From the NCBI RefSeq assembly GCF_963678165.1, contig NZ_OY782755.1:3539996-3603995 (forward strand): a DNA stretch of 64,000 bases, given 5' to 3'. A model generated the notes under the pieces. That model saw only the letters and a list, made by a program, of their open reading frames with translations. It was not told the DNA's origin and ran no database searches. Source of the stretch: an uncultured Acetobacteroides sp. Lineage in GTDB: Bacteria; Bacteroidota; Bacteroidia; Bacteroidales; ZOR0009. Positions within the stretch are counted from its first letter, which is position 1. Every line of letters begins with the position of its first letter. Made by a program: the position numbers and the translations under genes. Positions 53,004-64,000 of this stretch are shown in pieces.

Positions 53004-54590
53004 ATGGAAAATGAATTTTACGAAGAAAGCCCCGAGAAGTCTACGCGCAGAAGCTTCGACAACGAATCGGGCGAGTCTTTCCAAGAAAAACAAAATGAGA
53101 AACCTAAAAGAACCATTTCCGATCCAAACAGAGGAGTATTTGAAAGGAAGGTAGATTTCAACCCAAACAGAGAAAGAAACTTTGACCGCGACGACCGTGG
53201 TGGAGATCGTAGTGGTTTCAACCGCGAGCGCAACTTCAACCGTGATGACCGTGGTGGAGATCGTGGTGGATTCAACCGTGAGCGCAGCTTCAACCGCGAT
53301 GACCGTGGTGGAGATCGTGGTGGTTTCAACCGCGAGCGCAACTTCAACCGCGACGACCGTGGTGGAGATCGTGGTGGTTTCAACCGTGAGCGCAGCTTCA
53401 ACCGCGATGACCGTGGTGGAGATCGTGGTGGTTTCAACCGTGAGCGCAGCTTCAACCGCGACGACCGTGATGGAGATCGTGGTGGTTTCAACCGTGAGCG
53501 CAGTTTCAACCGCGACGACCGTGATGGAGATCGTGGTGGTTTCAACCGTGAGCGCAGCTTCAACCGCGACGACCGTGGTGGAGATCGCGGTGGGTTTAAC
53601 CGCGAGCGCAGCTTCAACCGCGATGACCGTGGTGGAGATCGCGGAGGTTTTAACCGTGAGCGCAGCTTCAACCGCGACGACCGTGGTGGAGATCGTGGTG
53701 GTTTCTACTCCCCATTTGAGAAGAAAAAAAGCTACGGCGGAGATTTCAACGATCGAAATGATAACAGCAATCGCACCCTTCGTCCACGTAAAAGCCGTGG
53801 GGAAGAGTTTGATCGTCCAAAAATTGGTGCTGGATTAGGTCCAAAATACGTAGAGGAGCCTATTGATCCAGAAGCAGAAATCCGCTTGAACAAGTATATC
53901 GCCAACTCTGGTGTTTGCTCACGTCGTGAAGCCGACAACCACATCACAGCAGGTGAAATTACAGTTAATGGAGAAGTAGTAACAACCCTTGGTACCAAGA
54001 TTAAGATGGGTGATGAGGTTCAATTTAACGGAACCATCATCAAAGGAGAAAAGAAGGTTTACCTCATTCTCAACAAGCCTAAAGGATATGTTACCTCTGT
54101 AGATGATCCCCACGCCGAAAAAACGGTAATGGAGCTTATTAAAGGAGCCTGCAACGAGCGCATTTACCCTGTTGGTCGCCTAGACAAATCGACTACAGGC
54201 GTTCTTCTCCTCACCAACGATGGAGAACTTACCAAAACGCTTACTCACCCTACCTATAACAAGAAAAAAATCTACCACGTGTTCCTCGATAAGAGAATAA
54301 GCGAGGAAGATATGGAGCGTATTGCTACTGGAGTAGACTTAGACGATGGTGTAGCTTATGCTGATGCCATTAGCTACGTTGACGGCAGCGACAAATCGCA
54401 GGTAGGCGTTGAAATTCACTCTGGCAAAAACAGAATTATCCGCCGCTTATTCGACACCATCGGATATAAGGTAATAAAGTTGGATAGAGTTTACTTCGCA
54501 GGATTAACCAAGAAGGGACTTCCTAAAGGAAGATGGCGTTTCCTAACTCAACGCGAGGTTGGAATGCTCAAGATGGGATCTTACGAATAG
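53004..54590 (+). CDS. RsuA/RluB-type pseudouridine synthase with Arg/Asp/Gly-rich repeat extension
   Basis: 528 residues. The C-terminal half is a standard rRNA pseudouridine synthase: S4 domain (about 294-350; RLNKYIANSGVCSRREADNH) and catalytic domain with Asp394 in PVGRLDKSTTGVLLLTNDGE, ending in IRRLFDTIGYKVIKLDRVYF. The N-terminal 290 residues are disordered and highly charged, with ten 18-residue repeats (53166-53705) of the type NRERSFNRDDRGGDRGGF, resembling RGG-box RNA-binding tails. Such basic extensions on this enzyme are known in Bacteroidota; the repeat number is likely variable. The exact rRNA target is not deducible. Confidence 0.92.
   Translation: MENEFYEESPEKSTRRSFDNESGESFQEKQNEKPKRTISDPNRGVFERKVDFNPNRERNFDRDDRGGDRSGFNRERNFNRDDRGGDRGGFNRERSFNRDDRGGDRGGFNRERNFNRDDRGGDRGGFNRERSFNRDDRGGDRGGFNRERSFNRDDRDGDRGGFNRERSFNRDDRDGDRGGFNRERSFNRDDRGGDRGGFNRERSFNRDDRGGDRGGFNRERSFNRDDRGGDRGGFYSPFEKKKSYGGDFNDRNDNSNRTLRPRKSRGEEFDRPKIGAGLGPKYVEEPIDPEAEIRLNKYIANSGVCSRREADNHITAGEITVNGEVVTTLGTKIKMGDEVQFNGTIIKGEKKVYLILNKPKGYVTSVDDPHAEKTVMELIKGACNERIYPVGRLDKSTTGVLLLTNDGELTKTLTHPTYNKKKIYHVFLDKRISEEDMERIATGVDLDDGVAYADAISYVDGSDKSQVGVEIHSGKNRIIRRLFDTIGYKVIKLDRVYFAGLTKKGLPKGRWRFLTQREVGMLKMGSYE
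53166..53705 (+). repeat. Ten in-frame 54-bp repeats encoding an RGG-like tract
   Basis: Ten units of 54 bp encode NRERSFNRDDRGGDRGGF with changes only at N/S, N/D and G/D/S positions. Synonymous differences (cgc/cgt, gat/gac) between units are few, indicating recent expansion or gene conversion. The same DNA gives long shadow frames on both strands that I do not annotate. Confidence 0.95.
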
Positions 54591-57928: not shown

Positions 57929-58414
57929 GTAGCAATTCCCAAATTTTAGTGATGCATTGACTTCGGAGCGGGATCAATTCCTAAATTTTAGTGATGCATT
58001 AACCTCGGACCTGGATCAATTCCCAAATTTTGGGGATGCATTGACCTCGAAGCTGAATCAATTCCTAATTTTTGGGGATGCATTACCTTCGATGCTGAAT
58101 CAATCCCCGAATTTTAAGGATGCATTGACTTCGGAGCGGGATCAATTCCCAATTTTTAGGGATGCATTACCTTCGGAGCTGAATCAATCCGTAAATTTTA
58201 GGGATGCATTGACCTCGGAGGTGAATCAATCTCCAAATTTTAGGGATGCATTGCCTTCGGAGCGGAATCAATCCCTAAATTTTAGTGATGCATTGCCTTC
58301 GATGCTGAATCAATTCCCAAATTTTAGTGATGCATTACCTTCGGACCTGAATCAATTCCTAAATTTTGGGGATGCATTGCCTTCGGAGGTGGATCAATTC
58401 CCAAGTTCTAGCGG
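57929..58414. repeat. Eleven tandem 42-bp units (array D)
   Basis: GATGCATT recurs at 57951, 57993, 58035, 58077, 58119, 58161, 58203, 58245, 58287, 58329 and 58371, exactly 42 bp apart, preceded by a half unit. Within each unit ATCAAT and AAATTTT-G are nearly invariant, while the 12 bases after the octamer vary in a mosaic (e.g. TTCGGAGCGG, CTCGGACCTG, TTCGATGCTG). One plus frame is open throughout, but it has no ATG and follows a TAG at 57930. The array fills the divergent region between the methyltransferase and FNR-like genes. Confidence 0.93.
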
Positions 58415-58522
58415 ATAATGCGCTCCACCCCTCCCCCATCTGCTTATAAAAGCTAAACCAAAAACATTTGCGCCTCTCCCATGTTTTCCCCCACAAAATT
58501 AAAAGAAGGAGGACCACAAGCC

Positions 58523-59458: not shown

Positions 59459-59640
59459 AAGTCCAACCTGCACATACAGCTCATCTCAATAACCGACATC
59501 AATAAAATTCTTGTTTTTTAGCACTTTACAGTTCGCTTGCAGACAACCTTCCACCGTTAAGTATAGCTATAAAACAGCGCATTGCCGAACATCGGTAAGC
59601 AGAAACAGCTATCATTGCATCCGTCATAACGAACAAAGAG

Positions 59641-59730
59641 ATGAACAAGTCCCTACAAGTAACAAGTTGGTTTTACTTTTTTTACTACTTCTTTTTTTAC
59701 GAAAGAGGGGGCTTGGCTATTGCGCGATAA
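59641..59730 (+). CDS. Aromatic leader peptide 1 of the phe/tyr operon
   Basis: A 29-codon frame reading MNKSLQVTS, then eleven uninterrupted aromatic residues WFYFFYYFFFY (six Phe, four Tyr, one Trp), then ERGGLAIAR and stop. Such a run has no structural purpose and is the hallmark of a leader peptide sensing charged tRNA-Phe and tRNA-Tyr. It is directly followed by a terminator whose 5' arm can alternatively pair with the codons after the aromatic run. Confidence 0.88.
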   Translation: MNKSLQVTSWFYFFYYFFFYERGGLAIAR

Positions 59731-59780
59731 GATCGACACAAAAATAGAGCAAGCCCCAGCAATGGGGCTTTTCTTTTTTT
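59708..59780 (+). promoter_or_regulatory. Attenuator 1: antiterminator and terminator
   Basis: Terminator: AAGCCCC (59751-59757) with GGGGCTT (59764-59770) and then TTCTTTTTTT. Antiterminator: GGGGCTTG (59708-59715), which lies in leader codons 23-25, with CAAGCCCC (59750-59757), 8 bp. The two use the same strand and exclude each other. A ribosome stalled in the aromatic run leaves 59708-59715 free (read-through); one reaching the stop codon at 59728 covers it (termination). Confidence 0.85.
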
Positions 59781-59794
59781 AAAACCATAAGCAG

Positions 59795-59923
59795 ATGCAA
59801 AACGTACAAAACATAGAAACAACGAGGGCAGAGCAGCAGGTGCGGTTACGTTCGCTATTTAGCGCTTCGTATTTCTACTTTTTCTACTACTGGAGAAAGA
59901 AGGGACTTTTATGTGCGTGCTAG
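59795..59923 (+). CDS. Aromatic leader peptide 2 of the phe/tyr operon
   Basis: A 42-codon frame starting MQNVQNIETTRAEQQ and containing YFYFFYYW (residues 26-33, eight aromatic residues in a row), then RKKGLLCAC and stop. It begins 14 bp after the T tract of attenuator 1 and ends before a second terminator. Sequence outside the aromatic run is unlike leader 1, so it is not a simple recent duplication. Confidence 0.85.
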   Translation: MQNVQNIETTRAEQQVRLRSLFSASYFYFFYYWRKKGLLCAC

Positions 59924-59977
59924 CATCAGAATAGCAACACCGAGCATAAAGGTCCCACACGCGTGGGGCCTTTTTTT
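59902..59977 (+). promoter_or_regulatory. Attenuator 2: antiterminator and terminator
   Basis: Terminator: AAAGGTCCCAC (59948-59958) with GTGGGGCCTTT (59963-59973; one G-U) and a run of seven T. Antiterminator: GGGACTTTTATG (59902-59913), in leader codons 36-40 just after the aromatic run, with CATAAAGGTCCC (59945-59956), 12 bp with one G-U. They are mutually exclusive. pheA starts 27 bp after the T tract. Confidence 0.85.
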
Positions 59978-60003
59978 ATATCCGACCAAAAAGACAAAAA
60001 CAA

Positions 60004-60855
60004 ATGATACTAGAGTACGAATCGCCATTAAGAGTAGCCATACAGGGGGTAAGAGGGGCCTTCCACGAGATCGCCGCAAGAGAAACCCTTGGTAACGATA
60101 TCATCCCCGTAGAATGCCTAACCTTCCGCGAGCTGGTTGCCGCAACCGAATCGGAGAAGGTTGATGCCGCTCTTATGGCCATCGAGAACTCCGTAGCAGG
60201 CGGCATCCTGCCCAACTACGCGCTGCTCCGCAACTCGGAGCTGCAGATTGTCGGCGAGGTTTACCTGCGCATCGTACAGAACCTGCTAGCCCTACCCGGC
60301 GAAACGGTAGAGTCCATCAAAGAGGTGGAATCGCACCCCATGGCCATACAGCAGTGTACCGACTTCTTGGGAGAGCATCCCGAGTGGAAGATCATCGAGT
60401 CGGAAGACACCGCTCTTAGCGCACGTAAGATATCGGAGGGTGAAATCCGGGGAAAGGCAGCCATTGGCTCGTCGCTAGCTGCCGAGCTGTTCGGGCTTAA
60501 CATCCTTGCTCCCGAAATAGAATCGAACAAGGAGAACTATACCCGCTTCCTCATCCTTACAAAAAAGGATGGGAAGATACGCAACACCACCTCCAACAAG
60601 GCCAGCATCTGCTTCTCGGCCAAGCACGAGCCAGGAGCCCTAGCCGACATCCTTAAGGATATTGCCGACTGCGGCGTAAACCTTTCCATGCTCCACTCCC
60701 TGCCCAAGGTTGGGGCTAAGTGGGAGTATATCTTCCACGCCGACCTTGTGTACGATAGCTACATGCAGTACCTACAGGCCGTGAAGACGCTCAACGAAAC
60801 AGCCACCTACTTTAAGGTGCTGGGCGAATACCAAGCTGGATCAGAAATATTTTAA
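60004..60855 (+). CDS. pheA: Prephenate dehydratase
   Basis: Converts prephenate to phenylpyruvate in phenylalanine synthesis. Monofunctional: 283 residues, no chorismate mutase domain. The dehydratase domain begins LRVAIQGVRGAFHEIAAR and contains ENSVAGGI and the catalytic TRF motif in ENYTRFLIL. The C-terminal ACT domain (about 200-275) has HEPGALADILKDIADCGVNL, but the usual ESRP Phe-binding motif is LHSLP here, so feedback inhibition may differ. First structural gene behind the tandem attenuators; the aminotransferase starts 21 bp later. Confidence 0.95.
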   Translation: MILEYESPLRVAIQGVRGAFHEIAARETLGNDIIPVECLTFRELVAATESEKVDAALMAIENSVAGGILPNYALLRNSELQIVGEVYLRIVQNLLALPGETVESIKEVESHPMAIQQCTDFLGEHPEWKIIESEDTALSARKISEGEIRGKAAIGSSLAAELFGLNILAPEIESNKENYTRFLILTKKDGKIRNTTSNKASICFSAKHEPGALADILKDIADCGVNLSMLHSLPKVGAKWEYIFHADLVYDSYMQYLQAVKTLNETATYFKVLGEYQAGSEIF

Positions 60856-60876: not shown

Positions 60877-62046
60877 ATGCACGTAAAACCATCGAGTAGG
60901 ATTGGGAAGGTAAGCGAATACTACTTCTCGAAGAAGCTAAAAGAGATTGACCAGATGAGGGCCAACGGCACCAAGGTCATCAACCTTGGCATTGGCAACC
61001 CCGACTTGAAGCCTTCGGCCGCAATGATTGAGGGCGTTTGTGAAACCAGCCGAAAGAGCGGCGTCCACGGCTACCAGAGCTACATTGGCAGCCCCGTTCT
61101 TCGCCAGGCCTTTGCCGATTTCTACCACCGATACTACGGCGTGACGCTAAACCCATCCAACGAGATTCTTCCGCTAACGGGATCGAAGGAGGGCATCATG
61201 CACATCTCCATGGCCTTCCTCGACGAGGGCGACGAGGTGCTGGTACCCAACCCCGGCTACCCCACCTACACCTCGGCCACCAAGCTGGCTGGTGGCGTTC
61301 CTGTGGAGTACAACCTCACCGAGGAGAACGGGTTTCACCCCAACTTCGAGGAGATTGAGCAGCGCGATCTATCAAAAGTAAAGTTGATGTGGGTGAACTA
61401 CCCCCACATGCCAACGGGTGCTAAGGCTACGAGGAAGCTGTTCGAGCAGCTGGTGGCGTTCGGCAGGAAGCACCAGATACTCATCTGCCACGACAACCCC
61501 TACAGCTTCATCCTAAACAAGGAGCCGCTAAGCCTGATGGCCGTTGAAGGGGCCAAGGAGGTGGCGCTGGAGCTCAACTCGCTAAGCAAGTCGCACAACA
61601 TGGCCGGATGGCGCGTGGGGATGCTGGCAGGAAGCGCCGAACACCTTAGCGCAGTGCTCACCTTCAAGAGCAACATGGACTCGGGTATGGCCCTGCCCAT
61701 TCAGATGGCCGCTGCCGCTGCGCTGAGCGCCGACCAGAATTGGTTCGACAGCATCAATGCCGAGTACGCCAAAAGGCTGGTGCTGGCCGAGGAGATTGCC
61801 CGAAAGATAGGCTGCAAGCTACCCAAGGAGCATTCTGGAATGTTCCTATGGATAAAGATTCCCGACAGCGTGGAGAGCGCCGAGGCAATGGCCGACAAGA
61901 TCCTCTACCAAAAGGGCATCTTCATCACGCCGGGATCGATCTTCGGATCGAACGGCAGCCGATTCCTGCGCATCTCGCTCTGCGCCGATGAGGCAACCCT
62001 AAAGGAGGCCGCCGATATACTTAGCACGTTTAAACTAGAGGAGTAA
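60877..62046 (+). CDS. PLP-dependent class I/II aminotransferase (probably aromatic)
   Basis: 389 residues of fold type I. Visible: GNPDLKPSAAMIEG, YQSYIGSPVLRQAFADFY, PLTGSKEGIMHI, VPNPGYPTYTSAT, NYPHMPTGAKAT, HDNPYSFI and the PLP-lysine motif LNSLSKSHNMAGWRVG, with SRFLRISLC near the end binding substrate carboxylate. Sequence alone places it near aspartate/LL-DAP-type aminotransferases, but its place between pheA and tyrA suggests it transaminates phenylpyruvate, hydroxyphenylpyruvate or prephenate. This is context-based. Confidence 0.88.
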   Translation: MHVKPSSRIGKVSEYYFSKKLKEIDQMRANGTKVINLGIGNPDLKPSAAMIEGVCETSRKSGVHGYQSYIGSPVLRQAFADFYHRYYGVTLNPSNEILPLTGSKEGIMHISMAFLDEGDEVLVPNPGYPTYTSATKLAGGVPVEYNLTEENGFHPNFEEIEQRDLSKVKLMWVNYPHMPTGAKATRKLFEQLVAFGRKHQILICHDNPYSFILNKEPLSLMAVEGAKEVALELNSLSKSHNMAGWRVGMLAGSAEHLSAVLTFKSNMDSGMALPIQMAAAAALSADQNWFDSINAEYAKRLVLAEEIARKIGCKLPKEHSGMFLWIKIPDSVESAEAMADKILYQKGIFITPGSIFGSNGSRFLRISLCADEATLKEAADILSTFKLEE

Positions 62047-62272: not shown

Positions 62273-63118
62273 ATGAACATTACAATAATCGGATTAGGCT
62301 TAATTGGAGGATCGATGGCCATCGACTTTAAGCATATGGGGCATCGGGTGCTAGGCGTCGAAGCCAACCCCTTTCACCAGCGCGAGGCCATGGATCTTGG
62401 GCTGGTGGAGCAATGCCTCCCGCTCGATCAGGCCGTAGCACAGTCGGACGTGGTGGTGGTTGCCGTACCCGTAGGAGCAACACCAGCCGTTATTAAGGAG
62501 GCGCTGCAGCATCTTCAGGCAAATGGCGTTATCTTTGATGTTGGCTCGACCAAAAAAGGTATCTGCAAGGCGTTGGAGGGGCATCCTCGCCGCGAGCGGT
62601 TCGTTGCCGCCCACCCCATTGCAGGAACCGAGTACAGCGGACCGTCGGCAGCGCACAGCGGCCTATTCTACCGCAAGTTGGGCATCATCTGCGATAGGCA
62701 AAAAAGCGCCACCGATGCCGTAGACTGCGTGGAGGACCTGTTCGTGCAGCTGGGCATGGAGCTCAAGCGCATCGACTCCGACGAGCACGACAAGCACCTG
62801 GCCTACGTGTCGCACATCTCGCACCTATCGTCGTTTACGCTGGGGCTTACAGTGCTCGACATCGAGAAGGACGAGCGTTCGATCTTCGACATGGCCGGCA
62901 GCGGTTTCGCCTCAACGGTCCGACTGGCAAAGAGCTCGCCCGAGATGTGGGCGCCCATCATGCTCGAAAACTCAGAGCACCTGCTGGAGGCGCTCGACAG
63001 CTACATCGACAACCTCAACAAGTTTAAGGAGCGCATCCTTAACCGCGACGAGGAGGGGCTAAAGGAGCTGATGCGCGAGGCCAACCGAATTAGAAGGGTA
63101 CTGGAGAAGAGAAGTTAA
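62273..63118 (+). CDS. tyrA: Prephenate dehydrogenase
   Basis: NAD(P)-dependent oxidative decarboxylation of prephenate to 4-hydroxyphenylpyruvate (tyrosine branch). 281 residues: MNITIIGLGLIGGSMAIDFK (Rossmann GxGxxG), DVVVVAVPVGATP, IFDVGSTKKGICKALEG, and the substrate-site HPIAGTEYSGPSAAHSGLF; the helical dimerisation domain follows. Neither a chorismate mutase nor an ACT domain is fused, so inhibition by Tyr would have to act through the catalytic domain. Confidence 0.94.
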   Translation: MNITIIGLGLIGGSMAIDFKHMGHRVLGVEANPFHQREAMDLGLVEQCLPLDQAVAQSDVVVVAVPVGATPAVIKEALQHLQANGVIFDVGSTKKGICKALEGHPRRERFVAAHPIAGTEYSGPSAAHSGLFYRKLGIICDRQKSATDAVDCVEDLFVQLGMELKRIDSDEHDKHLAYVSHISHLSSFTLGLTVLDIEKDERSIFDMAGSGFASTVRLAKSSPEMWAPIMLENSEHLLEALDSYIDNLNKFKERILNRDEEGLKELMREANRIRRVLEKRS

Positions 63119-63438: not shown

Positions 63439-64000
63439 ATGGCAGCAAACGAGCTTAAAGATTTGATTCCAATGACCGAATGGTTACCGGGAATCAAGAG
63501 ACCGCTAATCATCGCAGGACCTTGCAGCGCCGAGAGTCCCGAGCAGCTAATGGAAACCGCAAAGGCCATTAAGGCCCTTGGCCAGGTGGATATCTTCCGC
63601 GCTGGCATATGGAAGCCCCGCACCTTCCCCAACAACTTCGAGGGGGTAGGCAGCATCGGCCTAGAGTGGCTTCGCGAGGTGAAGAAGGAGACCGGTCTAC
63701 CTGTTGCCACCGAGGTAGGCTCGGTGAAGCACGTGTTCGAGGCCATCAAGTACGGCGTCGACCTCATCTGGATTGGCGCCCGCACCACGGCCAACCCCTT
63801 CGCCATGCAGGAGATCGCCGAGGCGCTTCAGGGGGTAGACATCCCCGTGCTGGTGAAGAACCCGCTTAGTCCCGATCTCGAGCTGTGGGATGGGGGCATC
63901 ACCCGCATCTACGCAGCCGGCATCCGCAAACTCGGCGCCATCCACCGCGGCTTCTCCACCTGGGGCAAGAGCGACCTGCGCAACACCCCCCACTGGCAGG
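63439..64000 (+). CDS. DAHP synthase, probably fused to chorismate mutase (3' end beyond window)
   Basis: First 187 codons of a 3-deoxy-7-phosphoheptulonate synthase of the KDO8P synthase-like (type I beta) group: RPLIIAGPCSAESPEQLMET, VDIFRAGIWKPRTFPNNFEG, PVATEVGSVKHVFEAIKYGV, LIWIGARTTANPFAMQEIAE and VLVKNPLSPDLELWDGGITR. It catalyses the first step of the aromatic pathway. In Bacteroidota this protein usually carries a C-terminal type II chorismate mutase, which would make prephenate for pheA and tyrA; that part lies beyond the window and cannot be confirmed. Confidence 0.92.
   Translation, partial: MAANELKDLIPMTEWLPGIKRPLIIAGPCSAESPEQLMETAKAIKALGQVDIFRAGIWKPRTFPNNFEGVGSIGLEWLREVKKETGLPVATEVGSVKHVFEAIKYGVDLIWIGARTTANPFAMQEIAEALQGVDIPVLVKNPLSPDLELWDGGITRIYAAGIRKLGAIHRGFSTWGKSDLRNTPHWQ

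Follow-up and report, generated by a model that had tools for sequence, protein, structure and literature searches.

The window, by which we mean the whole analysed stretch of 64,000 nucleotides from an uncultured Acetobacteroides sp. whose genome is a single contig of 4.30 Mb, ends in four Phe/Tyr biosynthesis genes that all run in one direction:

60004 to 60855, forward strand: pheA, prephenate dehydratase (PF00800, E 4.7e-56)
60877 to 62046, forward strand: class I/II aminotransferase (PF00155, E 3.5e-64)
62273 to 63118, forward strand: tyrA, prephenate dehydrogenase (NF006307, 324.7 bits against a cut-off of 295)
63439 to 63999, forward strand: DAHP synthase, incomplete because the window ends within it (PF00793, E 1.7e-25)

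Two tandem arrays are found further upstream, the one at 57933-58416 being built from 11.5 copies of a 42-bp unit (82% matches) and open in at least one frame, and that at 53185-53705 from 9.6 copies of a 54-bp unit lying within a 528-residue open reading frame with Arg/Gly/Asp-rich repeats. The DNA leading up to pheA contains two leader modules, made up of the following features:

59610 to 59617, forward strand: candidate promoter -7 box TATCATTG, read from the sequence, with one mismatch to TAnnTTTG, a box class enriched before first leaders
59641 to 59730, forward strand: leader peptide 1, 29 codons, from ATG at 59641 to TAA at 59730, open reading frame MNKSLQVTSWFYFFYYFFFYERGGLAIAR
59646 to 59654, forward strand: module 1 segment 1, early codons able to pair with segment 2 if the ribosome is absent (from the minimum free energy (MFE) fold of the untranslated leader)
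59668 to 59700, forward strand: leader 1 aromatic run, 11 consecutive codons (W F Y F F Y Y F F F Y)
59708 to 59715, forward strand: module 1 segment 2, the antiterminator 5' strand, pairing with 59750-59757 over 8 bp
59750 to 59757, forward strand: module 1 segment 3, common to antiterminator and terminator
59751 to 59780, forward strand: intrinsic terminator 1, a hairpin at 59751-59770 with a T-rich tail
59795 to 59923, forward strand: leader peptide 2, an open reading frame of 42 codons, from ATG at 59795 to TAG at 59923
59870 to 59893, forward strand: leader 2 aromatic run, 8 consecutive codons (Y F Y F F Y Y W)
59902 to 59913, forward strand: module 2 segment 2, the antiterminator 5' strand, pairing with 59945-59956 over 12 bp with one G-U
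59945 to 59956, forward strand: module 2 segment 3
59948 to 59977, forward strand: intrinsic terminator 2, a hairpin at 59948-59973 with a T tail

Each of the two modules combines a short leader open reading frame carrying clustered codons for the product amino acids of the operon, an intrinsic terminator following that frame and, just past the regulatory codons, an antiterminator that excludes the terminator. The earlier note on this DNA had read the region as tandem attenuators before pheA, and both leaders, both terminators and the 8-bp and 12-bp pairings are indeed present where it placed them. Calculated over slightly longer stretches, the antiterminator duplexes amount to -20.6 kcal/mol in module 1 and -20.3 kcal/mol in module 2. 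Since a generic terminator scan returned 4 terminators on both strands, which is not far over chance (2.2 in shuffles, sd 1.5), the evidence lies in the combination of the elements and in their conservation and not in the hairpins alone.

Alternative folds of the leaders

Both window modules are predicted to fold into the antiterminator when the ribosome is stalled, into the terminator when it has reached the stop codon and likewise into the terminator when the leader is untranslated, and in the untranslated fold of module 1 the early codons pair with segment 2 as a protector. Among the 242 modules of the survey described below, segment 2 starts at a median of 10 nt past the aromatic run (5-95%: 6 to 16), and the duplex formed between the stretch following the run and the module's own terminator 5' arm has a mean of -15.2 kcal/mol, as compared to -9.7 kcal/mol for arms taken from other loci (40 permutations, sd of means 0.19) and -6.5 kcal/mol for shuffled stretches. 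Once the stop codon has been reached, the terminator is formed in 242 of 242 modules, a result that is partly built in, the upstream RNA being omitted from that fold. When the full terminator is present, the stalled-state MFE structure is the antiterminator in 70 of the 242 modules (29 of 80 in tandems), and because this is a minority, the model leans on co-transcriptional order. Classical attenuation likewise depends on the order of RNA synthesis. As long as the 3' strand of the terminator has yet to be made, upstream pairing takes up 77% of the arm, compared to 11% when the ribosome sits at the stop codon.

Distribution of pheA modules and their codon content

PheA was searched for in 60 relatives and subsequently in 393 genomes of the order, a match being found in 178 of the 393. 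Upstream DNA was taken from 149 distinct order genomes and from 77 of 80 loci with record titles; left out were L025 and L029, whose pheA is truncated at the edge of a contig, and L053, which duplicates the position of L008, from the order sample, and L194, L215 and L221 (too little upstream DNA) from the named set. A filter of at least 450 nt upstream, which removed L049, L058, L137 and L155, then gave 146 order-sample and 76 named loci, that is 222. L039 and L173 are identical upstream and were both counted, L033 and L160 share their leader peptides, and the named and order-sample sets may overlap further. A module was defined as an open reading frame that starts with ATG, is 9-50 residues long and contains a stretch of 8 in which 5 or more are aromatic, together with a terminator of its own at -9 kcal/mol or lower.

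One module was found at 162 of the 222 loci, two at 40 and none at 20. The order sample, which spans 53 family codes, comprises 103 single, 28 tandem and 15 empty loci, its tandems belonging to 14 families, and the named set comprises 59, 12 and 5, respectively, with tandems that include Hymenobacter, Chitinophaga and Saprospiraceae. Five detection settings, the main one among them, gave 28 to 41 tandems; L058, L068 and L086 are tandem-like under looser rules and were left out of the tandem count. A triple module was found at none of the 222 loci under any of these settings, nor with 900 nt of upstream DNA where the DNA extends so far. Bacteroidota are the right comparison group for the window, a single pheA module being the commonest state and the tandem recurring there. 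It may also be mentioned that some single modules (L004, L116, L170, L225, L232 and others) precede pheA by approximately 180 to 290 nt, at the place of the distal module of tandems, as if a proximal module had been lost.

The supply sensed by the two window leaders would be that of charged Phe and Tyr tRNAs, each leader containing a single Trp codon in addition. It could be argued that the two modules instead report two different signals, one leader responding mainly to Phe and the other mainly to Tyr or Trp, and the residue mix does vary among individual leaders, one Trp codon being present in both leaders of the window. Over the 40 tandems, however, the mix is alike, with F 0.53, Y 0.42 and W 0.05 in distal leaders and F 0.57, Y 0.39 and W 0.04 in proximal ones, leaving such a division of labour unlikely.

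Descent of the tandem state and its transcription

Two same-genus genomes were found and compared with the window (G001, with a PheA 80% identical, and G002, with one 98% identical), and both leaders and both terminators are kept in each of them, so that the aromatic runs and hairpins that the earlier note expected upstream of pheA in relatives are present in both congeners. Codon differences in the leader 1 run are mostly synonymous across the genus (TAC/TAT, TTT/TTC), the last aromatic codon having been lost in G001, while leader 2 has diverged in its N-terminal half in G001, where the aromatic run is retained, and has its run broken by Leu in G002. Co-variation of the alternative stems, which that note proposed to look for, takes the form of compensating changes in module 2 within these three sequences only: an A-U antiterminator pair of the window corresponds to G-C in G002, the loop of terminator 2 is closed by C-G in the window and by U-A in G002, this pair being absent in G001, and codon 38 of leader 2 is CTT, TTT or TCT, the residue changing while the antiterminator pairs stay. 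In a comparison of three sequences only, these patterns suggest that selection acts both on the aromatic codons and on the pairing.

The PheA tree, which is a gene tree of one gene and not a species tree, carried labels on 154 rows, 114 of them single and 40 tandem. Explaining the tandem state on it takes no fewer than 18 changes, whereas 100 label shuffles average 35.4 with a minimum of 32. A second, quick tree build again gave 18 changes, as with FastTree, and scoring three borderline loci as tandem gave 16; the figure is a rough one. Since the changes are well below those of the label shuffles and yet many, the tandem state is clustered by descent but has repeatedly arisen or been lost, the count being one that does not separate gain from loss. 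The smallest PheA clade that contains the genus together with L008, L030, L032, L153, L156 and L172 has 10 rows and a support of 93, and 9 of these rows are tandem, the sole single being L070.

A maintained double gate and not a fresh duplication is the best reading, in agreement with its presence in the congeners, with the prevalence of tandems in the surrounding PheA clade and with antiterminator arms that are matched to their own terminators. One might still suppose that one of the modules is a decaying, functionless duplicate beside a single working gate, a notion to which the gains or losses implied by the changes on the PheA tree lend some weight. It is nonetheless quite improbable, since both modules are found in all three genus members and at 9 of the 10 loci of the clade, and since the antiterminators are equally good in distal and proximal modules, the mean own duplex being -15.3 kcal/mol in the former, -14.9 kcal/mol in the latter and -15.2 kcal/mol in single modules.

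A double gate further presupposes that both modules are read in series, and here the position of candidate promoters is informative. The box TAnnTTTG occurs within 60 nt before the leader at 123 of 162 single loci (8.0 expected, all expected counts being derived from single-base shuffles), and within 60 nt before leader 1 at 25 of 40 tandems (1.2 expected). The remaining 15 of 40 tandems are without an exact box at this distance, the window's own included, where TATCATTG is aligned with TAATATTG in both congeners. Had there been a second promoter between the modules, the resulting transcript would meet gate 2 only and the modules would be alternatives. As regards promoters of this kind, the only one covered, the box is indeed found in 5 of 40 stretches between the tandem start codons, one of them (L207) past terminator 1, but 5.0 are expected by chance, against 26 of 40 within 120 nt before leader 1 where 3.0 are expected, and in the short gaps directly before leader 2 it is found in 0 of 40 tandems (0.3 expected); we accordingly regard a second promoter as very improbable. 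Given that the box is in excess ahead of leader 1 but at chance level in the stretch separating the two leaders, both gates are most likely carried on one transcript, and the double gate is probably read from one promoter. Finally, the idea that T-rich DNA before a gene simply gives rise to Phe/Tyr-rich open reading frames and T-tailed hairpins is contradicted by controls and can be disregarded for practical purposes, for although leader-like frames alone appear in 59 of 1,110 dinucleotide shuffles made from the 500 nt that precede each of the 222 pheA genes, a leader with a terminator appears in 1 of these shuffles and on 2 of 222 reverse strands, compared to a module of either number at 202 of the 222 real loci.

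Probable serial attenuation and its relation to known systems

Taken at the level of sequence and predicted structure, we consider it well supported, with a probability of roughly 0.87, that the pheA leader would carry two complete ribosome-dependent attenuators in series on one 5' leader, both reading charged aromatic tRNAs. When aromatics are plentiful, the ribosome would pass the aromatic run and cover segment 2, leaving segments 3 and 4 to form the terminator, and when they are scarce it would stall in the run, so that a free segment 2 could pair with segment 3 and the polymerase read through. A transcript would have to clear gate 1 and thereafter gate 2 in order to reach pheA, and since the gates are passed one after the other, the read-through fractions should multiply. 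We infer that the leaders are translated, that ribosomes stall in them, that termination follows as described and that two gates multiply in series, with a lower leak and a sharper response as the presumed benefit; a very steep response to tRNA charging may reasonably be expected from this arrangement.

The window's genome has single leaders before other amino acid genes, namely hisG (L258; five His), trpE (L267; three Trp) and ilvD (L277; Ile/Val/Leu-rich). Among 33 trpE loci, one module is found at 17, two at 3 (one of which, L291, is doubtful) and none at 13, while among 34 hisG loci the figures are 26, 3 and 5, both being counts without a shuffle control; weaker second trpE matches (L270-L273) were left out of the count, and L297 has no Trp leader before trpE. 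Tandem modules were observed elsewhere in the order before trpE, with Trp codons, in L263 and L304, and before hisG, with His codons, in L309, L322 and L325. Direct reading of the sequence of the trpE double in L263 showed a pair of WWW leaders, with a T-tailed hairpin after each.

Textbooks describe the attenuation of amino acid operons with a single leader for each operon, and the E. coli trp and pheA type are single ribosome-dependent attenuators. The Rfam Phe_leader family (RF01859) was considered for the window and rejected, its best score being 28.3 bits at 59849-59978 (E 0.089) against a gathering score of 55, and it was not found at gathering score in any of 16 tandem loci. A T-box or riboswitch was likewise rejected, no Rfam family reaching its gathering score in these 16 loci, which include L001 of the window's genome.

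Published work already describes putative attenuators upstream of pheA in Bacteroidota. Leader-peptide clues before amino acid operons and a structured element before pheA are reported for Flavobacterium psychrophilum (PMC9723704), and a putative attenuator is listed upstream of the B. thetaiotaomicron pheA operon in Table 7 of PMC1173090. The single attenuators of E. coli trp/pheA type, of F. psychrophilum and of B. thetaiotaomicron resemble the present modules in having a leader open reading frame with product codons, an intrinsic terminator, an exclusive antiterminator and a biosynthetic operon downstream, whereas here two complete units are placed serially before one operon. Two attenuator units are also given for the aromatic supraoperon of Streptococcus pneumoniae, and the printed table seems to put the second among the genes (PMC1173090). 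Further context is provided by PMC7366714, PMC8632094 and PMC4974804. A same-signal tandem leader-peptide attenuator before an amino acid operon was not found in the literature covered, outside of which lie most subscription journals.

Other tandem arrangements offer partial parallels. Salmonella mgtCBR (PMC3641672) likewise has two leader open reading frames, each controlling one common downstream transcript, but its signals, ATP and proline, differ and act additively, and its stem-loops are unlike intrinsic terminators; the codon content of both leaders is of one kind in the window and in the 40 tandems, which would speak against different signals here. Pseudo-cooperative tandem riboswitches, of which the TPP tandem is an example, share with the arrangement proposed for the pheA leader two independent serial termination gates for the same signal, and a steeper response is described for such same-ligand tandems (PMC9481103). 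They differ in binding their ligand directly, while the sensor proposed here is the translating ribosome and no Rfam family was matched. Synthetic pT181 antisense attenuators placed two in series are said to improve dynamic range (PMC3753616), but these are engineered, antisense-controlled and without leader peptides.

We think it reasonably probable, albeit with less assurance than for the locus itself, that serial same-signal attenuation is a recurrent design of Bacteroidota amino acid operons, used often for phe/tyr and sometimes for trp and his, that it has been gained or lost many times, and that it constitutes a ribosome-read counterpart of pseudo-cooperative tandem riboswitches which would derive a sharper switch from graded tRNA charging. 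Leader annotation in Bacteroidota should then look for two small open reading frames and two premature transcript ends per operon. Furthermore, if two serial units are a standing option of the phylum, relatives with one gate and relatives with two would offer a natural experiment on the contribution of an additional gate, the possible gains being a lower leak, a wider range and a sharper threshold.
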